Shown one piece after another: positions 4,773-35,250 of a stretch of DNA of 35,250 bases. Below the pieces are notes generated by a model, which did not search any database, had not been told where the DNA came from, and saw nothing but the letters and a program-made list of their open reading frames with translations. Numbering within the stretch: the stretch's first letter is position 1; every line of letters starts with the position of its first letter. The translations under genes and the position numbers were made by a program. Origin of the DNA: Chloroflexota bacterium (GTDB taxonomy: Bacteria > Chloroflexota > Anaerolineae > JAAEKA01); the NCBI GenBank assembly GCA_029558955.1, contig JAKQCW010000130.1, forward strand, positions 1 to 35,250. The letters run 5' to 3'.

Positions 4773-4792
4773 ACCGCGGCGGGCCAGCAATT

Positions 4793-4932
4793 CCCAATCC
4801 AACAAGGAATCGAGGCTTCAGCCGGGTCCCAATCCAACAGGGAGTCGAGGCTTCAGCCGGGTCCCAATCCAACAGGGAGTCGTGGCTTCAGCCGGGTCCC
4901 AATCCAACAAGGAGTCGAGGCTTCAGCCGGGT
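4793..4932. repeat. Four 35-bp tandem repeats
   Basis: Units start at 4793, 4828, 4863 and 4898; each runs from CCCAATCCAACA to GGCTTCAGCCGGGT with one or two substitutions. A single diverged copy of the second half (GGAGTCGAGCCTTCAGGCGGGT) forms the 3' end of tyrS at 16924-16945, so this is an interspersed family, not only a local tandem duplication. Confidence 0.93.
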
Positions 4933-4995
4933 CCGGGCCGATGCGAGTCGCTGGCAGCCGTCATAACTGGAACCGCCAGTTCACCGTCATCGTCT

Positions 4996-6366: not shown

Positions 6367-6388
6367 TTTCATCCCAAACCACCCCCTC

Positions 6389-6568
6389 GCTCAGGCCGGT
6401 CTTTCGCTCAGGCCGGTCTCCTGACCTCGCTCAGGCCGGTCTCCGACCGAGCCTGCACCCGCTCACGGCGCGCCCCGCTCAGGCCGGTCTCCTGACCGAG
6501 CCTGCACCCGCTCACGGCGCGCCCCGCTCAGGCCGGTCTCCTGACCGAGCCTGCACCCGCTCACGGCG
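6389..6568. repeat. REP-like hairpin repeats, cluster 1
   Basis: Five copies of GCTCAGGCCGGT start at 6389, 6406, 6429, 6477 and 6526; the last three are in 48-49-bp units that also contain GAGCCTGCACCCGCTCACGG. The core GGC-CGGTC-TCCT-GACCG-A-GCC folds as a hairpin with one bulged base, as in classical REP elements. The stop codon of the GT4 gene (6561-6563) is inside the last unit. Same family as the arrays around the RAYT gene at 22.1-23.6 kb. Confidence 0.9.
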
Positions 6569-7788: not shown

Positions 7789-8844
7789 TCACCATTGATG
7801 CACGACCAGCGGCGAGTCGAGACGCGGCCAGCAGGGCTGCGACGCCGGGCAGGCGGCGGGCTGCCAATAGACTGCCCCGGACAGCCCTTGCCAGCCCGCG
7901 TCGCCCAACTGGGCCACGGCCTGGAGCACGGTCGTCCGGTTGACAGGTGTGCCGGCCTGGCCAGCCAGCGCGATGGCGTCCAACAGCAGGTTGGTCGCGT
8001 CGTAGGCCAGCACGGCCTGCGGAGAAGGGGGCGCGCCGGCCAGCTCCTGGTAGGCGGCCACGAACTGCGCCGGCAGCGCGCTGGCCGCTGGGCCGGCGCT
8101 CAGCCAGCGCACGCCGGCGGCCGCGGCGGCGGCCCGGCCGGCGAAAACGTCGGATCCCAGCTCAGGCCCGCCGATCAGCGTGCGCGCCGGGCCAAGCTGA
8201 CCGGCCAATGCGGCCCCGCCGGCTGCATCGCCCAGCCAGATGACGCCGCGCGCTGCATCCCAAGCCGCCGGCGCGCCAGCCGCGGCGGCCTCGCCGCCAT
8301 TCCCGGCCGCGCCAGCCAGACCGGCGCCCCGGCCAAGGATGACCGGCTCGGCCACCCCCTCGGCGCGCAGGATCTCCTCAGCCAGCGCGGCCGCCTCGGC
8401 CGGCGGCGCTTCCAGCGCAAAGCCAGCCGGCTGCTGCTCCGGCGCCAGGCTGGCCAGCGCGATCCAGGGCAGGCCGGCCTCGGCCAGCACAGGCCCGGCC
8501 GCGGCCGCCGTGGCGCCGTGCAGGGGGCCGATCACCGCCAGCAGGTCCTGATCCACCACCAGATTGGCGGCCTGGCGCTGCGCCTCCTGCGGCCGGCCGT
8601 TGTCGTTCAGCGCGATCAGCGCCACCTGGCGGCCAGCCACGCCGCCGGCCGCGTTGCGCTGGCTGATGGCCAGTTGAACGGCCGGCAGCGCCGCGTAGCC
8701 GTCGCTGCGATAGAGCTCCTCGAAGGGCGCCAGCAGGCCCAACTTGACCACCGGCGGCGTGTTGCCGCGCCCAGATGCACAGCCGGCCAGCAGCAGCAGT
8801 AGCGTCAACAGCGACGGGATGAACCGATGGGAGAAGGCGTTCAC
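7789..8844 (-). CDS. Branched-chain-amino-acid-type ABC substrate-binding lipoprotein
   Basis: About 351 residues from a GTG at 8844, giving VNAFSHRF followed by a Leu-rich signal and the lipobox LLAGC (Cys 22). A TTG start at 8868 would extend it by 8 residues but falls inside a 15-bp hairpin, so I prefer the GTG. The mature part begins VVKLGLLAPFEELYRSDGYA and contains AISQRNAAGGVAGRQVALIALND and VIGPLHGATAAAAGPVLAEAG. These are typical of type I periplasmic-binding (Leu/Ile/Val-binding) proteins. No permease or ATPase genes are adjacent, so it is either an orphan binding protein or a sensor-type protein. The sequence is extremely Ala-rich. Confidence 0.82.
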   Translation of the reverse strand: MNAFSHRFIPSLLTLLLLLAGCASGRGNTPPVVKLGLLAPFEELYRSDGYAALPAVQLAISQRNAAGGVAGRQVALIALNDNGRPQEAQRQAANLVVDQDLLAVIGPLHGATAAAAGPVLAEAGLPWIALASLAPEQQPAGFALEAPPAEAAALAEEILRAEGVAEPVILGRGAGLAGAAGNGGEAAAAGAPAAWDAARGVIWLGDAAGGAALAGQLGPARTLIGGPELGSDVFAGRAAAAAAGVRWLSAGPAASALPAQFVAAYQELAGAPPSPQAVLAYDATNLLLDAIALAGQAGTPVNRTTVLQAVAQLGDAGWQGLSGAVYWQPAACPASQPCWPRLDSPLVVHQW

Positions 8845-8865
8845 GGAAGTGTGGGGATAAACGAC

Positions 8866-8905
8866 CAACGCTGAACGATGACTTCGGATGCATCGTTCAG
8901 CGTTG
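8866..8905 (-). terminator. Strong hairpin downstream of mltG
   Basis: Perfect 15-bp inverted repeat (CAACGCTGAACGATG at 8866-8880, complement at 8891-8905) with a 10-base loop, just past the mltG stop. The sequence after it on the minus strand (GTCGTTTATCC) is only modestly T-rich, so termination is likely but not certain; it could also be an mRNA-stabilising 3' hairpin. Confidence 0.6.
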
Positions 8906-18010: not shown

Positions 18011-20029
18011 ATGGCTTCTGCCTCGTCCCAACCAACCTCACCGCTGAACGATGTGCTGGCGTCCTATGACCTGAAACAGGCGGTGGACGACAACCGGCTG
18101 GCCGGGCTATGGCGCATGATCAGCGGCTTCCACCGGACTTTCATCGCTGCAACGCTGGCGCTGGGCATGGCCGCGCTGGCCAAGACCGCGGTTTACTTTG
18201 TCTTTCGCGACTTCGTGGACAACGTCCTGGGCCAGCCGGACAAGGCCAACCTGGTGCCGCTGATCGCGCTGAGCTTTATCGGCCTGGCGCTGCTGGAGGG
18301 CGGTTTCACCTACCTCAGCGGCCGCTGGGCCGCGCGCACAGCCGAAGGCACCGCCTACCGCCTGCGCAACTACCTGCTTGACCAGATCCAGCGCCTGCCC
18401 TTCACCTACCACGACCGCACCTCCACCGGCGAGCTGATCCAGCGCGCCACCTCGGACGTGGATCATATCCGCCGCTTCCTGGCCGACCAGGCCACGGCGG
18501 TGGGGCGCGTGGCCATGCTCTTTCTGGTCAACTTCATCGCCATTCTGCTGCTCAACTGGCAGTTGGCGCTGGCCTCGGTGGTGGTCATCCCACTGGTGCT
18601 GCTGGTCTCGGTCTGGTTCTTCCGGCGCATCTCCACGGCCTACGAGGCCTATCAGGAGCAGGAGGCGGCGCTGTCCACCACCTTGCAGGAGAATCTGACC
18701 GGCGTGCGGGTGGTGCGCGCCTTCGCCCGCCAGGACTATGAGCGCGCCAAGTTCGAGAAGGACAACTGGGAGAAATATCGCCGCGGCCGCTGGCTGTTGA
18801 TCAACCACGCGCTCTACTGGCCGACCACCGATATCATCTCCGGCCTGCAGATGCTGTTCGGCTTCACCTTCGCCGCGCTGCTGGCCATCGACGGAACGAT
18901 CAGCTTGGGCACCTACCTGGCCTACCATCAGTTGGTGATCTGGATCATCTGGCCGATGCGCAACCTGGGCCGGCTGATCGTGGAGATGTCCACCGGCCTG
19001 GTCTCTTACCAGCGCGTCTCGAAGGTGATCGCTGAGGAGCGGGAGCCGCTGGACGCGGGCGAGGTGCGGCCGACCGGCCCGCCGCAGGGCCACATCATCT
19101 ACGACCGCGTCGCCTTTGCCTATGAGCGGCCGGCCGATGCCGGCGATGGGCCGTCCGATGCCGCGCAGTCGGAGACCGCCGACGGCGATCACCTTCCCTT
19201 TGTCCACGAATCGTTGGCCAGCACGGCCATCGAGGTGGACATCCCTGAGCCGGGCCTCGCCCAGCCGCAGCAGGAGGCCAAGCCGGCCGACGCCAAGCCG
19301 CATGTGCTGCACGACATCAGCTTCGAATGCCAGCCGGGCCAGGTGATCGCGCTGATGGGCGGCGCCGGCTCAGGCAAGACCAGCCTGGTCAACCTGCTGC
19401 CCCGCTTCTACGAGGCCACAGGCGGGCAGATCATGCTGGATGGCCAGCCGCTGACCAGCTACCCGCGGCGCTATCTGCGGCAAAACGTGGGCATCGTGGA
19501 GCAGGAGCCCTTCCTCTTCTCGCGCTCGATTCGTGACAACATCACCTTCGGCGTGGGACGGTCGGTGTCCGACGAGGAGGTCTTCGCTGCGGCGCGCGCC
19601 GCGGCCATCCATGACGGCATCCTGAGCTTTCCCGAGGGCTACAGCACCCTGGTGGGAGAGAAGGGGGTGACGCTGTCGGGCGGCCAGAAGCAGCGGGTGG
19701 CCATCGCCCGCACCCTGCTCAAGAACCCGCGCATTCTGATCCTGGATGACGCCACCTCGTCGGTGGACAGCGAGACCGAGGCTGAGATCCGTCAGGCCTT
19801 GCAGCGCCTGATGGAGAACCGCACGACCTTCATCATCGCACACCGCATCCAGAGCGTCATGGACGCCGATCAGATCCTGGTGCTCAAGGATGGCCACGTG
19901 CTGCAACAGGGCCGGCACGACGAACTGATGGCCCAGCCCGGCTTTTACCGGCAGATCTACGAGCTGCAAGCGAAGATGGAAGATGAGCTGCAGCGCGAGA
20001 TTGCGGGCGATGGCAGGAATAATGCGTAA
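18011..20029 (+). CDS. ABC exporter half-transporter, degenerate Walker B partner
   Basis: 672 residues: an exporter-type membrane domain with six helices (about 45-340) followed by a nucleotide-binding domain. Walker A is GGAGSGKTS (K456), Q-loop VEQEP, signature LSGGQ (555-559), H-loop AHR. The residue after the Walker B Asp, normally the catalytic Glu, is Asp (ILILDDATSSVD, D579-D580). An insertion of about 50 residues (PADAGDGPSDAAQSE and onward) splits the start of the ATPase domain. ATG at 18011 has GAGGTG 5 bases upstream. With the next gene it should form a heterodimeric exporter of lipids, drugs or peptides. The stop codon lies in a heptad repeat (GCGTAACG). Confidence 0.93.
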   Translation: MASASSQPTSPLNDVLASYDLKQAVDDNRLAGLWRMISGFHRTFIAATLALGMAALAKTAVYFVFRDFVDNVLGQPDKANLVPLIALSFIGLALLEGGFTYLSGRWAARTAEGTAYRLRNYLLDQIQRLPFTYHDRTSTGELIQRATSDVDHIRRFLADQATAVGRVAMLFLVNFIAILLLNWQLALASVVVIPLVLLVSVWFFRRISTAYEAYQEQEAALSTTLQENLTGVRVVRAFARQDYERAKFEKDNWEKYRRGRWLLINHALYWPTTDIISGLQMLFGFTFAALLAIDGTISLGTYLAYHQLVIWIIWPMRNLGRLIVEMSTGLVSYQRVSKVIAEEREPLDAGEVRPTGPPQGHIIYDRVAFAYERPADAGDGPSDAAQSETADGDHLPFVHESLASTAIEVDIPEPGLAQPQQEAKPADAKPHVLHDISFECQPGQVIALMGGAGSGKTSLVNLLPRFYEATGGQIMLDGQPLTSYPRRYLRQNVGIVEQEPFLFSRSIRDNITFGVGRSVSDEEVFAAARAAAIHDGILSFPEGYSTLVGEKGVTLSGGQKQRVAIARTLLKNPRILILDDATSSVDSETEAEIRQALQRLMENRTTFIIAHRIQSVMDADQILVLKDGHVLQQGRHDELMAQPGFYRQIYELQAKMEDELQREIAGDGRNNA

Positions 20030-20239
20030 CGAGTAATGCGTAACCCGGAGGATGATGGGATGCGCGTGCTCGGATGAGCGTCAAGCGTAATGCGTAACGA
20101 GTAATGCGTAACCCGGAGGATGATGGGGTGCGTGTGCTCGGATGAGCGTAATGCGTGACGAGTAATCCGTAACTGACTGGCATAGAACAGCCAAGACACA
20201 TTACAGAGACCTCCTCCGGGTTACGCATTACGCATTACG
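20021..20239. repeat. Heptad (GTAATGC/GTAACCC) repeat block between the two ABC genes
   Basis: A 68-bp unit starting AATGCGTAACGAGTAATGCG occurs at 20021 and 20089, with a third partial copy at 20150. Within it, GTAAYGC-type heptads give a 7-bp rhythm. At 20213-20239 the same sequence is present inverted (CCTCCGGGTTACGCATTACG), so the transcript between the two ABC cistrons can fold into a long stem with 20101-20119. The stop codon of the first ABC gene is in the first unit. Confidence 0.9.
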
Positions 20240-22105: not shown

Positions 22106-22140
22106 CAACCGCACGCAACACCTTCGCCCCGCCCAAACAC

Positions 22141-22496
22141 CCCGCTCGGGCCGGTCTCCTGACCGTGCCCGCCCAAGCAACCCGCTCGGGCCGGTCTCCT
22201 GACCGTGCCCGCCCAAGCAACCCGCTCGGGCCGGTCTCCTGACCGTGCCCGCCCAATCAACCCGCTCGGGCCGGTCTCCTGACCGTGCCCGTCCAACTCA
22301 ACCCGCTCGGGCCGGTCTCCTGACCGTGCCCGTCCAACTCAACCCGCTCGGGCCGGTCTCCTGACCGTGCCCGCCCAACTCAACCCGCTCAGGCCGGTCT
22401 CCTGACCGTGCCCGCCCAAACAACCCGCTCGGGCCGGTCTCCTGACCGTGCCCGCCCAAGCAACCCGCTCGGGCCGGTCTCCTGACCGTGCCCGTC
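22141..22496. repeat. Left REP-like array next to the RAYT gene (9 units)
   Basis: Nine units of 40-41 bp start at 22141, 22181, 22221, 22261, 22302, 22343, 22384, 22424 and 22464. Each has CCGCTCGGGCCGGTC, TCCT, GACCGTGCCCG, then a short variable linker (CCCAAGCAA, TCCAACTCAA, CCCAAACAA). GGGC-CGGTC pairs with GACCG-GCCC leaving a bulged T. The linkers are too short and too alike to be CRISPR spacers. Confidence 0.93.
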
Positions 22497-22513
22497 AAAC
22501 TCCTTGACGGCGC

Positions 22514-22533
22514 GATCAGAGACCGGCCTGAGC
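22514..22533 (-). repeat. Lone inverted REP-like half copy 5' of the RAYT gene
   Basis: GATCAGAGACCGGCCTGAGC, the reverse orientation of the left array and the same orientation as the right array, 34 bases before the RAYT ATG. Together with the last left unit it makes an inverted pair. Confidence 0.7.
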
Positions 22534-22566
22534 ATCACGAGCAACACGACACACCGCAAGGATCTT

Positions 22567-23112
22567 ATGGAAACCTACCGCCTGTACCAGGATTATGCCC
22601 TCTACTACCTGACCTTCTCGATCCTCGAATGGCTGCCGGTTTTCATCGCTGAAGAGCCATGTCTGATTATCACTGACAGCCTCAACTTCTGCCACCGCGA
22701 TAAGCACCTGCGCACCAACGCCTTCGTCATCATGCCGACGCACATCCACTGGATCGGCTTCGATGCCGATTTTGACACCGCACGCCTGGGCAAGACCATC
22801 ACAGCCTTCCGCAAATTCACCGGCCAACGGCTGAGCGATTATGTCGATCACCATATGCCAAGAGCGTTTTCCGAAACGCTTCGGCGCGCTGGGCGCTCGG
22901 ATCGTGAACGTCAGTTCTGGCAGCAAAGCCGACATCCAGAGGCGATCTTCAAGCGTGATTTCTGGCAGACGAAGCTCGATTATCTGCATGACAATCCACG
23001 CCGCAAAGGGCTGGTGCTGGATCCGCTGTGCTGGCGCTTTTCGTCAGCGTCATTTTGGTTGAGGGAGCCGCGCGGGGAGTCGGATGTGATTCTGAGCGCC
23101 GTGGAGTGGTGA
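22567..23112 (+). CDS. REP-associated tyrosine transposase (RAYT, Y1/HUH nuclease)
   Basis: 181 residues from the ATG at 22567 (AAGGA at 22558-22562). The HUH motif is in VIMPTHIHWIG (H59, H61) and the single catalytic Tyr in LDYLHDNPRRKGLV (Y139), matching the Y-x-H-x-N-P-x-R-x-G pattern of RAYTs. These IS200/IS605-related enzymes cut and join single-stranded REP hairpins; they are normally single-copy, domesticated genes and not flanked by their own insertion ends. Here the gene is flanked by two arrays of one hairpin family in opposite orientation. Its stop codon runs into the first right unit (TGAGGCTGGCTCGG). The linker between HUH and Tyr carries an acidic/basic helix (SDRERQFWQQ). The gene is complete, with no frameshift. 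Confidence 0.9.
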   Translation: METYRLYQDYALYYLTFSILEWLPVFIAEEPCLIITDSLNFCHRDKHLRTNAFVIMPTHIHWIGFDADFDTARLGKTITAFRKFTGQRLSDYVDHHMPRAFSETLRRAGRSDRERQFWQQSRHPEAIFKRDFWQTKLDYLHDNPRRKGLVLDPLCWRFSSASFWLREPRGESDVILSAVEW

Positions 23113-23590
23113 GGCTGGCTCGGTCGGAGACCGGCCAGAGCGGTGTGGCGGGGTGGCGAGGCTGGCTCGGTCGGAGACCGGCCAGAGCGGGGTGGCGGGG
23201 GTAGCGATGCTGGCTCGGTCGGAGACCGGCCAGAACGGGGTGGCGGGGGTGCGAGGCTGGCTCGGTCGGAGACCGGCCAGAACGGGGTGGCGGGGGTGGC
23301 GAGGCTGGCTCGGTCGGAGATTGGCCAGAGCGGTGTAGCGGGGGTGGCGAGGCTGGCTCGGTCGGAGACCGGCCAGAGCGAGGTCGTGGGGTGGCGAGGC
23401 TGGCTCGGTCGGAGACCGGCCAGAGCGGGGTCGTGGGGTGGCGAGGCTGGCTCGGTCGGAGACCGGCCAGAGCGGGGTGGCGGGGTGGCGAGACTGGCTC
23501 GGTCGGAGACCGGCCAGAGCGGCGTCGCGGGGTGGCGAGGCTGGCTCGGTCGGAGACCGGCCAGAGCAGGGTGGAAGGAGACCGGCCAAG
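23111..23590. repeat. Right REP-like array next to the RAYT gene (10 units)
   Basis: Units of 47-48 bp start at 23111, 23158, 23206, 23253, 23301, 23349, 23396, 23443, 23490 and 23537, with a partial unit at about 23577-23590. Each contains GGCTCGGTCGGAGACCGGCC, then AGAGCGG and a G/T-rich linker (GGTGGCGGGGTGGC). GGC-CGGTC pairs with GACCG-GCC with a bulged T. It is the reverse complement of the left-array element with GGA instead of the AGGA loop. Nothing else is seen in 23113-23600. Confidence 0.93.
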
Positions 23591-26164: not shown

Positions 26165-28159
26165 ATGAACCAAGAACCAACCTGGAAGATCCTCTTCTTC
26201 GTCTGCGGCGACGCGTCGGATCGGCTGGCGCCGGGCCAGGGCGGCATCGATCTGGGGCCGCTGCTGGCGCAGGATGGGCTGCCACCCGGCCCGGCCGGCG
26301 CGATCGTGCTGGTGCAGGCGCGGCTCGGCGCCCATCAGCCGGCGCTGCGTCTGGCTCAACTGCCGGGCGAGGAGCTGGCCAGCGCCGTGGCCGCCGCCAA
26401 TACCGCCGGCGACGGCCCGGCCGAACGCGAGGACTTCGTCGCCTGGGCCATGGGCGCCTACCCCACCCGCCACAGCCTGCTGCTTCTGCACGACTGTCCG
26501 CCCGACGCAACCAGCCAGGTGGCCGAGCCGCCGGCCGTGTGGAGCATCGCCGGGCCGGCCAGCGCGCCGCAGTATTCGCCCCTCTCCGGGGCCGGCCTGG
26601 CAGAGATGATCGACCAGTTCGCGACGCGCGGGCTGGGCAGTTGGCTGACCAGCCTGGTCAGCAACATCGCCGGCCGGCTCAATGCGCTGCGACCGGCGCC
26701 GCAGCCGTCGCAGCCGGCCGCTCCCAAGGAGAAACCACCGATGACCGAGAAGCGCGATTGGACGATCTTGCTCTACATGGCCGGCGACAACGGCGCGACC
26801 TTCCAGAGCAAATATGGCAAGTATTCGCTGATGGCCGAGATGACCAGCGCGGGCGAACATGACATCGCCGAGATCGAGACCGTGGGCGCCACCGACCAGG
26901 TAGCCGTGCTGGCCCAGTTCGACACTCTGGCCGCCAAAGACCAACTGGCGACCAAAAAGGGCGTCGCGGCCGGCAGCACCTACCGGCTGGAAATCCACAA
27001 GGGCCGGGCGGTGCAGGATAACATCGTCCAGGTCTTGCCCGATGTCAACACCGGCGACCCGGCCGAGCTGGCCAAGTTCATCGTCTGGGGCTTGAACCGC
27101 TGCCCGGCCCGCAACACCATGTTGGTGCTGTGGAACCACGGCCTGGGCTGGAAGGACGATGACATCTACGCCAAGGTGCGCGGCATGTCCCGTTCAGCCA
27201 GCCAGGGGCGCGCGGCGCGCGGCAGCAACGCCGCCATCTTCCGCTCCACAGCCCAGAGCATCAACCGCCGGGCCAGCCGCACCCGCAGCGCCTCCTCGCG
27301 CGCGATCCTGTGCGACGACACCTCCATGGACTTCCTGACCAACAAAGAGCTGAGCCAGGCGCTGCGGGTGGCCGAGTTCGCCGTGGACGAGGCCGACGTG
27401 GCCACGATCTTCAACGACAAGGCGCGGCTGGACCAGATGATGGGCTGGGGCAACGAGGGCGCGCTGCGACACCTGAGCATCATCGGCATGGACGCCTGTC
27501 TGATGGCCATGATCGAGGTGCAGTACCAGGTGCGCCAGTTCGCTGACGTGATGGTGGCCTCGCAGGAGCTGGAGCCGATGCGCGGCTGGCCCTACAACAC
27601 CATCCTGGCCGATCTGACCGCCCGGCCAACCATGGAGGCGCGCGAGCTGGCCACGTTGATCGTCGATCGCTACGTCGAATCCTACACCAGCGACAGCCGC
27701 CGCCAGCCCGACGTCACCCAATCGGCCATCGACCTGAGCCGGCTGGGCGAGGCAGCCGCGGTGATCCAGCCGCTGGCCAGCGCGCTGGGCAAGGAGTACA
27801 AGGATGATCTCTTCCTGGAGAAGGCCTATCGCGACGCGCGCGACAAGGCGCAGCGCGATGGCTACGCCTTCGACGATCCGGAGTACATCGATCTGGTCAG
27901 CCTGCTGGACGCGATGATCAAGGGCTATCGCGGCGACGCCGGCGCCTCCAAGGCCATCGAGGCCGCGGCCCGGCTGCAGGACTGGCTGAAGTCGGACAAC
28001 TCCCCCATTCTGCGCAACGCCACCGCCGGCAAGTTCGACGGCAAGGCGCACGGCATCAGCATCTACGTGCCGCGGGATCAGCCCTCGCCCCTATACGAGG
28101 AGCTGGACTTCAAGGGCGTGGGCTGGTACGGCGCAGTCAACAAGATCTACAAAGCATAG
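26165..28159 (+). CDS. Clostripain-type (C11) cysteine peptidase with degenerate N-terminal half-domain
   Basis: 664 residues from an ATG with GGAG upstream. Residues 193-664 are a clan CD clostripain: RDWTILLYMAGDNG, catalytic His in LVLWNHGLGW (H325) and catalytic Cys in IIGMDACLMAMIE (C445), then ASQELEPMRGWPY. Between them lies a basic linker (about 339-380) with ten Arg and no acidic residue; C11 enzymes cut after Arg/Lys and mature by self-cleavage, so it is a likely processing site. Residues 1-190 look like a decayed copy of the front half of the same domain: AWAMGAYPTRHSLLLLH (93-109) lines up with VWGLNRCPARNTMLVLW (307-323) but has no catalytic HG. An internal ATG (26741) has its own ribosome-binding site. 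No signal peptide. Neighbours are Pepco-like and CHAT genes. Confidence 0.9.
   Translation: MNQEPTWKILFFVCGDASDRLAPGQGGIDLGPLLAQDGLPPGPAGAIVLVQARLGAHQPALRLAQLPGEELASAVAAANTAGDGPAEREDFVAWAMGAYPTRHSLLLLHDCPPDATSQVAEPPAVWSIAGPASAPQYSPLSGAGLAEMIDQFATRGLGSWLTSLVSNIAGRLNALRPAPQPSQPAAPKEKPPMTEKRDWTILLYMAGDNGATFQSKYGKYSLMAEMTSAGEHDIAEIETVGATDQVAVLAQFDTLAAKDQLATKKGVAAGSTYRLEIHKGRAVQDNIVQVLPDVNTGDPAELAKFIVWGLNRCPARNTMLVLWNHGLGWKDDDIYAKVRGMSRSASQGRAARGSNAAIFRSTAQSINRRASRTRSASSRAILCDDTSMDFLTNKELSQALRVAEFAVDEADVATIFNDKARLDQMMGWGNEGALRHLSIIGMDACLMAMIEVQYQVRQFADVMVASQELEPMRGWPYNTILADLTARPTMEARELATLIVDRYVESYTSDSRRQPDVTQSAIDLSRLGEAAAVIQPLASALGKEYKDDLFLEKAYRDARDKAQRDGYAFDDPEYIDLVSLLDAMIKGYRGDAGASKAIEAAARLQDWLKSDNSPILRNATAGKFDGKAHGISIYVPRDQPSPLYEELDFKGVGWYGAVNKIYKA
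26726..26743 (+). promoter_or_regulatory. Internal ribosome-binding site and in-frame ATG within the C11 gene
   Basis: AAGGAG (26726-26731), 9-base spacer, ATG (26741-26743) in frame with the longer gene. It would give a 472-residue protein beginning MTEKRDWTILLYMAGDN, the usual start of a stand-alone clostripain. Either a second start site or a relic of fusion. Confidence 0.6.
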
Positions 28160-28172
28160 CCAGGACTATCCC

Positions 28173-28484
28173 ATGAACGAAGATGGAACCATCACCTTCG
28201 TAGGCGTCGACGAGCGGGCAACCTCGCGCGGTTCGAGCGAGCTGGCCCGCGTCACCGAGAAGATCAGCATCGACGCGCTGCGCGACCAGTTCACCCGCTT
28301 CATGCAGAGTCTGGAGGCCGCCTTTGCCGTGGACCAGGTGCAAACTGCCCAGGGCGTCTTCCAGTTGAGCGAGATCCAGTTCAGCGCCGAGATGTCGGCC
28401 GCTGGCGAGTTCAAGCTGCTGGGCACCGGCGTAGGCGTGGCGGCCGGCGCGGCGCTCACCTTCGTGCTGACCCGCAAGGACTAG
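28173..28484 (+). CDS. Small Pepco-like protein
   Basis: 103 residues; ATG with AGGA 7 bases upstream, 13 bases after the C11 gene. An N-terminal strand (TITFVGVDE), a helical part (IDALRDQFTRFMQSLEAAF) and a C-terminal beta part FQLSEIQFSAEMSAAGEFKL then LLGTGVG and LTFVLTRK. The L-x-E-I-x-x-S-x-E-x-x-A-x-G-x-x-x-L-L-G-T-G pattern resembles the Pepco domain, described as coupled to peptidases in NTP-dependent and caspase-like bacterial conflict systems, and more distantly the trypsin-co-occurring domain. The Gly/Ala stretch GVGVAAGAAL could be a short hydrophobic segment. It probably binds or activates one of the two flanking proteases; this is inferred from context only. Confidence 0.68.
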   Translation: MNEDGTITFVGVDERATSRGSSELARVTEKISIDALRDQFTRFMQSLEAAFAVDQVQTAQGVFQLSEIQFSAEMSAAGEFKLLGTGVGVAAGAALTFVLTRKD

Positions 28485-28512
28485 CCGACGCCGAGACCAC
28501 ACCCGCGCTGCC

Positions 28513-28546
28513 CAGGATTGGCGGCCCCGCAGTGCTGCCAATCCTG
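28513..28546 (+). other. Intercistronic hairpin before the CHAT gene
   Basis: 10-bp perfect arms CAGGATTGGC (28513-28522) and GCCAATCCTG (28537-28546), 14-base loop, in the 92-base gap between the Pepco-like and CHAT genes. No T tract follows, so it more likely affects mRNA processing or the level of CHAT expression than full termination. Confidence 0.6.
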
Positions 28547-28576
28547 CCATGCCTGTCATCAACGAAGAGGACACCG

Positions 28577-31027
<2,451 letters not shown>

Positions 31028-31088: not shown

Positions 31089-31100
31089 CCCGCCTCCCTC

Positions 31101-31193
31101 CCATTCCCCATTCCCCCATTCCCCATTAACCATTAACCATTCCCCATTAACCATTGACCATTAACCATTAACCATTCCCCATTCCCCATCCAT
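31101..31193. repeat. CCATTNN heptad tract in front of mutS
   Basis: About thirteen heptads of CCATTCC, CCATTAA or CCATTGA, with one extra C early on, run up to 8 bases before the mutS ATG. They occupy the place where a ribosome-binding site would be; no Shine-Dalgarno is present. Similar to short tandem heptanucleotide repeats known from cyanobacteria and found in Chloroflexota. Confidence 0.9.
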
Positions 31194-33904: not shown

Positions 33905-35089
33905 ATGACCACCCTCCCAGCCACCGAATCGACCGCCGCCAGCCTCAAACGCAGCCAGACCAACGCCTTCTTTGTCTCGTTCATCGCCCTGGGTTTCGCT
34001 TTCTCCTCCTTGGGGCCGACGCTGCCCAGCCTGGCCAACAACACCGGCTCCACCCTGAGCCAGATCAGCATCCTTTTCACCGTGCAGTCGCTGGGTCTGC
34101 TGGCCGGCAACTTTTTCAGCGGCCGGCTCTTCGATCGCCGGCCAGCCTTCCCCTTTCTGGCCACGGTGGTGCTGTTGACGGCCGCCATGCTGGCTCTGAT
34201 CCCGCTGATGACCAGTCTGGGGCTGCTGGCGACGCTGCTCTTCATCATGGGACTGGCCACCGGTTCCATCGACGTGGGGGGCAACACCATGCTGGTCTGG
34301 CTGCACGGCAATCAAGCGGGGCCGCGCATGAACGCGCTGCACTTTTTCTTCGGCATCGGCGCGCTGCTGGCGCCCATCTTCGTGGCCCAGGCCATCGGGC
34401 TGACCGGCGGAGTCACGTGGGCCTACTGGCTGCTGGCGTTGCTGGTGCTGCCGGCTGCAGTGCTCTTCCTGCGTTTGCCCAGCCCGGTCGCGCCTGCCCG
34501 CATCGCCCAGGCCCGGCGCGAGCGCATTCCCTGGCTGCCGGTGGGGCTGATGATCGCGGCTTTCTTCCTTTTCGTGGGCGCGGAGGTCAGCTTCGGCGGC
34601 TGGATCTACACCTACGCGCTGTCGCTGGGCCTGGTCACGGTCACCAGCGGGGGCTATCTGACCTCGGTCTTCTGGGGTGCGTTGACGCTGGGGCGGCTGC
34701 TGACCATCCCCATCGCCGGTCGGGTGCGACCGCGCTACCTGCTGCTGGCTGACGTGTTGGGGGGTGCGGCGTCGCTTTCGCTGCTGCTGATGATGCCGGG
34801 CGTGGGCTGGGCGCTGTGGGTTGCCGCGTTTGGCTTCGGCCTCTCCATGGCCAACGTCTATCCCACGCTGGTGCTGCTGGGCCAGCGCCATCTGCACATG
34901 ACCGCGGCCATCACCAGCCTGTTCATGGTGGGAGGCAGTCTGGGCAGCATGGCCATCCCCTGGCTGATCGGCCAGCGTTTCGAGGCCACCGGGCCGCAGG
35001 TGACGATGATGGTCCTGCTGGCGGCTGTGATCATGGCGGGGATGGATGTGGCGGCGTTTTTGTGGGTGACGAGGGGGAAGCGCGGTTAG
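33905..35089 (+). CDS. MFS transporter (FucP/sugar-permease-like)
   Basis: 394 residues with twelve hydrophobic segments in two groups of six, separated by a basic loop around residues 195-210 (PSPVAPARIAQARRERIPW). Family-like motifs are GNFFSGRLFDRRPAFPF (loop 2-3 motif A, G-x-x-x-D-R-x-x) and GLATGSIDVGGNTMLVW in helix 4, the latter typical of fucose-permease-like members. The substrate cannot be told. It lies 43 bases after mutS and may be cotranscribed, but the roles are unrelated. No convincing Shine-Dalgarno precedes the ATG. Confidence 0.88.
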   Translation: MTTLPATESTAASLKRSQTNAFFVSFIALGFAFSSLGPTLPSLANNTGSTLSQISILFTVQSLGLLAGNFFSGRLFDRRPAFPFLATVVLLTAAMLALIPLMTSLGLLATLLFIMGLATGSIDVGGNTMLVWLHGNQAGPRMNALHFFFGIGALLAPIFVAQAIGLTGGVTWAYWLLALLVLPAAVLFLRLPSPVAPARIAQARRERIPWLPVGLMIAAFFLFVGAEVSFGGWIYTYALSLGLVTVTSGGYLTSVFWGALTLGRLLTIPIAGRVRPRYLLLADVLGGAASLSLLLMMPGVGWALWVAAFGFGLSMANVYPTLVLLGQRHLHMTAAITSLFMVGGSLGSMAIPWLIGQRFEATGPQVTMMVLLAAVIMAGMDVAAFLWVTRGKRG

Positions 35090-35135
35090 GACTGACAGTC
35101 CTGACGCAAAGGACTGACACCTTATTTTTGCGCAG

Positions 35136-35186
35136 TAACAGGCCGTTTCTACTCGGCGCAAGCAATAACAGGCCAGTTCTACTCGG
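35136..35186. repeat. Two 21-bp direct repeats
   Basis: TAACAGGCCGTTTCTACTCGG (35136) is nearly repeated as TAACAGGCCAGTTCTACTCGG... starting at 35166, 30 bp apart. They lie after the MFS gene and could be operator-like sites for the next gene outside the window, or another short repeat family. Confidence 0.7.
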
Positions 35187-35197
35187 TTATGGTTAAG

Positions 35198-35221
35198 CTG
35201 AGGGTCAGGATTGACCCTCAG
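35198..35221. terminator. Hairpin near the end of the window
   Basis: Perfect 10-bp stem CTGAGGGTCA (35198-35207) with TGACCCTCAG (35212-35221), 4-base loop; only a distant TTTT follows. A possible terminator for the MFS gene. The remaining bases to 35250 show nothing else. Confidence 0.5.
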
Positions 35222-35250
35222 AACAGTACTTTTCCAAGCACACAGCAAGA

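Follow-up and report, generated by a model that had tools for sequence, protein, structure and literature searches.

A probable REPtron in the Anaerolineae, with a single-copy RAYT gene between inverted arrays of one hairpin family

The stretch of DNA analysed here (the window) comprises positions 1 to 35,250 of contig JAKQCW010000130.1, from a metagenome-assembled genome (MAG) of the Anaerolineae, Chloroflexota (assembly GCA_029558955.1). Between positions 22141 and 23590 it carries a gene for a REP-associated tyrosine transposase (RAYT, also TnpAREP), here called RAYT-A, set between two arrays of hairpins of the repetitive extragenic palindromic (REP) type, here called family A. The locus is most probably a REPtron, consisting of a vertically inherited single-copy RAYT and its cognate REP family. 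A preliminary description of the locus had suggested a lineage-specific REP system. This is upheld, since the motif is abundant in the host genome (G000) and its genus and near-absent outside, and the RAYT occurs once, with its own repeat on either side. Comparisons were made with three congeners (G001, G002 and G003) and with more distant genomes. Relatives were named through the neighbouring ABC transporter gene, whose relatives in the GTDB records are Anaerolineae of the Chloroflexota, the nearest being isolate CH3 (JACSRL) and clx_CAG2 (JAAEKA). A search for related loci with the RAYT-A protein as query returned no matches.

The RAYT-A locus and its hairpins

The left array (22141-22498, forward strand) contains nine exact hairpins, GGCCGGTCTCCTGACCG, spaced 40-41 bp apart, with a TCCT loop, a CGCT foot and spacers of the type CCCAAGCAACCC. 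Tandem Repeats Finder (TRF) places this array at 22128-22494, with a period of 40 and 9.1 copies. The right array (23106-23574, reverse strand) has ten units 47-48 bp apart with a TCC loop. Nine of these are exact copies of GGCCGGTCTCCGACCG and one, at about 23316, is degenerate; the TRF limits are the same, with a period of 47 and 9.9 copies. A truncated last copy (GGAGACCGGCC only) follows on the reverse strand at 23575-23590, the partial copy being at 23577. The unit numbers, spacings and opposite orientations first reported for the two arrays are therefore borne out. The lone inverted copy reported upstream of the ATG at 22567 is also present, at about 22511-22533 on the reverse strand, and is degenerate (GCTCAGGCCGGTCTCTGATC). 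It has a complete counterpart at the equivalent place in G003 and none in G002.

RAYT-A itself (22567-23112, forward strand) is, as had been recognised, a complete Y1/HUH gene. It encodes 181 amino acids, with the HUH motif PTHIH, a WQ motif and the catalytic tyrosine motif DYLHDNP, as part of KLDYLHDNP. The protein matches the NCBIfam equivalog model REP_Tyr_transpos (NF047646) with 83.4 bits, where the cut-off is 80. A Pfam search with RAYT-A gave no match and a PHROGs search only one weak, unnamed match. The nearest solved structure is that of Escherichia coli TnpAREP (4ER8), aligned in weak stretches that span the HUH and Tyr motifs (whole-sequence E 0.11). When RAYTs are aligned, RAYT-A clusters with another RAYT of the host genome (RAYT-C, see below) and with RAYTs from other Anaerolineae families. 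In this alignment RAYT-A also has an extra segment ahead of WQ and, close to the C-terminus, an SS motif. Of the residues with which the E. coli enzyme reads GTAG, W94 and Q95 appear to be kept, whereas E100, H101 and R104 appear to be replaced by P, E and F.

The conserved hairpin unit, taken from 41 independent loci, is made up of [CT]GCT, C, N, GGCCGGTC, one of TCC, TCCT or TCCC, GACCG, A or T, GCC, N', G and C. This gives a YGCT foot, a C-N-GGC-CGGTC stem strand, a loop of TCC or TCCT, and a return strand of GACCG, one bulged A or T and GCC-N'-G. The CGGTC/GACCG stem with a loop of 3-4 bases, by which the hairpin had first been described, is therefore present but is only one part of a longer stem. 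GCT is found in the foot at 41 of 41 loci and is preceded by a pyrimidine at 40. Folded as DNA, the first four bases (the foot) are unpaired and one base is bulged; the folds are 5-8 kcal/mol more stable than those of shuffled sequences, and single units have z-scores of -3.2 to -4.7. Positions N and N' covary, with T-A in 66 cases, G-C in 39 and A-T in 7, against A-C in 10 and other unpaired combinations in 5. This compensation suggests either selection on the hairpin or the copying of subtypes that are each able to fold. The four unpaired foot bases occupy the position of GT[AG]G in canonical REPs.

Family A in the genus

Exact copies of the family A core, counted as GGCCGGTCTCC followed by 0-1 base and GACCG, number 640 in the host genome, 232 in G001, 90 in G002 and 398 in G003. 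The reversed control pattern has 0 copies in the host genome. This difference and the folding z-scores indicate that the repeat pattern is not due to chance. Outside the genus, two further genera of the family have 2 exact copies each. The other genomes of the class hold 0-3, apart from G035 with nine. No more than three of the G035 copies have the GCT foot, and the nine were rejected as family A members because most are without it. A motif count across the genome and its relatives had been proposed as the check on a lineage-specific system, and its outcome is that RAYT-free genomes of other genera hold 0-3 copies, or nine in G035. The motif is therefore neither equally abundant in relatives that lack the RAYT nor confined to the RAYT locus in the host genome.

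The copies are largely intergenic. Statistics on placement and spacers come from sampled stretches of the host genome and not from all 640 copies, with genes called from codon usage by a program trained on 16 genes from the window. On this basis 80% of the sampled DNA is coding, yet 122 of the 132 copies in it fall outside the called genes. There is no preference for a particular arrangement of the neighbouring genes (tandem same 11, tandem opposite 12, convergent 6, divergent 5).

The enzyme gene keeps its place between species. RAYT-A is found between the ABC gene and ygfZ in the host genome, G002 and G003. In each of them the copies upstream are forward and those downstream reverse. The first unit of the right array starts at the RAYT-A stop codon in all three species. 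The ABC gene and RAYT-A of G003 are on two contigs, both of which break in the left array. A sulfatase-like gene, judged from its sequence, occupies the RAYT-A site in G005. G003 has two small open frames (L088 6907-7280) that separate the ABC gene from the left array. The first resembles, by eye, a DUF433-type antitoxin; none were seen in the host genome or G002. There is one copy of RAYT-A per genome. Its dN/dS ratio (non-synonymous to synonymous substitution rates) against the G002 orthologue is 0.066 (dS 1.18), and that of ygfZ is higher at 0.22. RAYT-A has the look of a domesticated transposase gene, present in single copy.

Occupied sites away from RAYT-A differ between the species. A further family A array in the window, overlooked in the preliminary description, lies at 6388-6568 on the forward strand, with a period of 49 and a spacer of its own; no array is present at the orthologous intergenic sites in G001 and G002. 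Three copies at the mltG/ruvX junction are present in G002 alone, and a hairpin cluster upstream of the gene orthologous to 7789-8868 in G001 alone. The G002 assembly is 72% complete and absences from it are therefore weak.

Spacer identity averages 0.75 within arrays and 0.31 between arrays, and 0 of 300 permutations attained the observed value. Because the spacers are alike within arrays and unlike between them, the arrays are likely to have grown by duplication of a local unit rather than by repeated insertion. Tandem arrays of 4-9 units, each with its own local spacer, are found at many other loci. Array growth next to the enzyme gene, as first suggested, is therefore true of the RAYT-A locus but not special to it. 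Large clusters of REPs, tandemly reiterated together with flanking DNA, were described in 2013 (PMC3733652), and largely head-to-tail arrays have already been seen in some other REP families.

Other RAYTs of the genus and alternative explanations

The host genome contains five RAYT-type genes, RAYT-A to RAYT-E, and each has hairpins of a family of its own on both sides. Exact patterns were used to count families A, B, D and E, and a pattern with one mismatch tolerated was used for family C. In the host genome, G001, G002 and G003, respectively, there are 701, 21, 2 and 18 copies of family B, 80, 0, 0 and 1 of family C, 3, 5, 2 and 107 of family D, and 62, 13, 22 and 11 of family E. Orthologues of RAYT-B and RAYT-C were not found in the three congeners, and within the genus only the host genome, which holds both genes, has families B and C in abundance. 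RAYT-D is present in the host genome and G003 (93%), with the exact family D pattern abundant only in G003; the host count is a lower bound, as the copies beside the host gene are more varied than the pattern allows. RAYT-E is present in the host genome and G001, with drifted hairpins. The counts support a separate REP family for each RAYT strongly for B and C, in part for A and weakly for D and E. An orthologue of RAYT-B in another genus (G004, 69%) has a hairpin that is slightly altered, with GGACTCGAG in place of GGAGTCGAG; joint change of enzyme and repeat would predict this.

Repeats of the other families are also seen in the window and in related genomes. A four-unit family B array (GGAGTCGAGGCTTCAGCCGG, period 35) is present at 4792-4934, RAYT-B itself being on contig C82. 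At 35088-35250 a family E hairpin follows a major facilitator superfamily (MFS) gene and runs into a sequence of about 125 bp, which also ends contig C270, mirrored, next to RAYT-E. The MFS gene and RAYT-E are adjacent in G001, and an inserted element may therefore split the E array, with RAYT-E lying just past the window. With the family B array included, REPs of three or more families are present in the window. Contig C45 of G003 (L034/L042) has two different RAYT-type genes 0.9 kb apart, with their own hairpins beside each. On contig C149 of G004 (L037) a RAYT lies beside hairpins with the canonical GTAG foot (GTAGTAACGGCTTCAGCCGTTA), so that GTAG and non-GTAG systems coexist in this bacterial family. 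Three copies of an 87-bp tandem unit containing GGTCGAGTAGCGGG and CGAGACC, possibly a further REP-like family, are located between two genes at 1679-1947. Other features of the window are a 68-bp tandem duplication between two ABC transporter genes (20020-20156), a 21-bp tandem repeat (CCCATTAACCATTCACCATTC) ahead of mutS (31100-31189), and genes for a clostripain-family peptidase C11, a Pepco and a CHAT-domain protein (26165-31024, Pfam), which recall protease-based conflict systems.

Several observations weigh against a REPtron. The 232 family A copies of G001 are accompanied by no detected RAYT-A, its locus being unassembled, and the RAYT-A of G003 has a single-base frameshift in the assembly, yet that genome has 398 hairpins. 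Families D and E track their RAYTs only loosely. Exact insertion junctions were not recovered in three site comparisons, because the intergenic DNA is too diverged, and without a clean junction an empty site could also be the result of loss. No GT[AG]G tetranucleotide, the mark of the canonical GTAG REP superfamily, is present 5' of the family A hairpin, where the foot is [CT]GCT. Structure prediction for RAYT-A from two sequences was unusable, with a predicted local distance difference test (pLDDT) score of 38.6.

The first two of these observations would fit hairpins that are passive repeats, or owe their spread to another agent, and that merely surround the RAYT. This is unlikely, since each of the five host RAYTs is flanked on both sides by a distinct hairpin family, the inverted arrangement at the gene is kept in three species, and abundance of families B and C is limited to the genome that has their RAYTs. 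Taken at face value, G001 is a RAYT-free genome with the motif, but this candidate was rejected as an assembly gap. Its contig C186 (7,632 bases) ends inside the ABC gene and ygfZ was not found in the genome, so that absence of RAYT-A cannot be claimed. Arrays can break MAG contigs at the RAYT locus, as seen in G003, and the absence of a RAYT from a draft genome can therefore be an artefact.

It is more doubtful still that RAYT-A is a mobile insertion sequence of the IS200/IS605 type, with the inverted hairpins as its ends and the scattered hairpins as remnants of past insertions. The inverted flanks do recall left and right ends, and the enzyme belongs to the Y1/HUH superfamily. Against this, RAYT-A is present once per genome, compared with 640 hairpins in the host; it is under strong constraint, and three species have it at the same site. 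The flanking hairpins are arrays and not single ends, and the dispersed copies expected of such an element are missing, no second full or partial RAYT-A having been found in the host genome. Least credible of all is that the arrays are kept for the host as RNA or DNA signals of the adjacent genes (terminators, mRNA stabilisers) or are CRISPR-like: although the hairpins are stable and intergenic, and REPs are known elsewhere to bind host proteins and to influence mRNA (PMC6006769), a terminator was rejected for want of any T-tract or terminator-like site in the arrays and a CRISPR array because the spacers are near-identical within an array instead of unique and foreign, an Rfam search of the arrays gave no match, the copies have no preferred gene arrangement, and their sites turn over between species.

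For the REPtron, the activities of RAYT-A are modelled on those of the E. coli, Stenotrophomonas and Marinomonas enzymes (PMC8266576). RAYT-A would bind the hairpin in single-stranded DNA and would read the YGCT foot as a guide in place of GT[AG]G. Cleavage beside the foot and rejoining of REP copies would then seed new intergenic sites. Seeded copies may become head-to-tail arrays by local duplication of the hairpin with its adjacent DNA, through slippage or unequal exchange, possibly aided by nicks. The element as a whole would no longer move.

Relationship to known REP systems

The REPtrons of E. coli, Pseudomonas and Stenotrophomonas (PMC2817692, PMC6006769, PMC8266576) share features with the locus. 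They have a single-copy Y1 HUH gene between inverted REPs, with one REP at the stop codon, hundreds of intergenic copies, hairpins that carry a tetranucleotide foot on the 5' side and, in the E. coli group, a bulge, and several RAYTs per genome that each have their own REP family. They differ in the foot, which is GT[AG]G rather than YGCT, and in being arranged as inverted doublets, where family A is mostly in head-to-tail arrays. Non-GTAG feet are also known from Class 3 TnpAY1 systems with hundreds of genomic copies, yet these have a Y----Q tyrosine motif and a CnGA foot (PMC6006769).

Judged by its motifs rather than by a published model, the RAYT-A system resembles the 'atypical-REP' subclass 2.6 of TnpAY1. 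This subclass corresponds to Bertels group 5, with 'atypical secondary structures', is mostly found in Bacteroidetes, and is characterised by NH[LIV]H, WQ and YIH[QN]NP motifs, an extra segment before WQ, an SS motif and atypical hairpins (PMC6006769). RAYT-A shares the WQ motif, a Y-aliphatic-H-x-NP motif, an extra segment between the HUH and Tyr motifs, the C-terminal SS and non-GTAG hairpins. It differs in its HUH motif (TH-I-H), its Tyr motif (YLHDNP) and its host phylum. Tandem reiteration is shared with the REP clusters of Di Nocera et al. (2013), in GTAG families that are known in the Chloroflexi (PMC3733652). The foot and hairpin of family A are different, and it belongs to neither the GTAG nor the CGTC superfamily.

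The view in the preliminary description that REP/RAYT pairs are known mostly from Gammaproteobacteria is dated, given that work from 2013 reported GTAG REPs from the Chloroflexi, among other phyla (PMC3733652), and that tnpAREP-type genes are present in more than 25% of the species analysed (PMC6006769). The REP/RAYT system described here is real, in a phylum where such systems have hardly been described in detail. As a version of the known pairing of repeat and enzyme it is new for the lineage, and it has an unusual, non-GTAG foot.

Biochemical knowledge of how RAYTs select and cut their repeats is limited to a few Gammaproteobacteria with GTAG feet. With its several RAYTs, varied feet and more than 1000 private hairpins, this Chloroflexota genus provides independent enzyme and substrate pairs for the guide rule. 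By inspection, the feet are YGCT for families A and C, GGAG-like for family B, GTAG for a RAYT of G004 and CCAA for a RAYT of G003. The guide bases select the cleavage dinucleotide by cross-complementarity in Marinomonas (PMC8266576), and by this rule a YGCT guide predicts cleavage at AG (or AC). It is conceivable, although we would lean slightly against it, that the guide of RAYT-A, YGCT, is new and goes with changes in the residues that read it, and hence with a different cleavage dinucleotide, predicted to be AG, and that the Anaerolineae hold a natural series of RAYTs and guides. If so, the RAYT guide code would be readable from this series. In the comparison of species it is the enzyme gene that stays, and the repeats that turn over and grow by local duplication.
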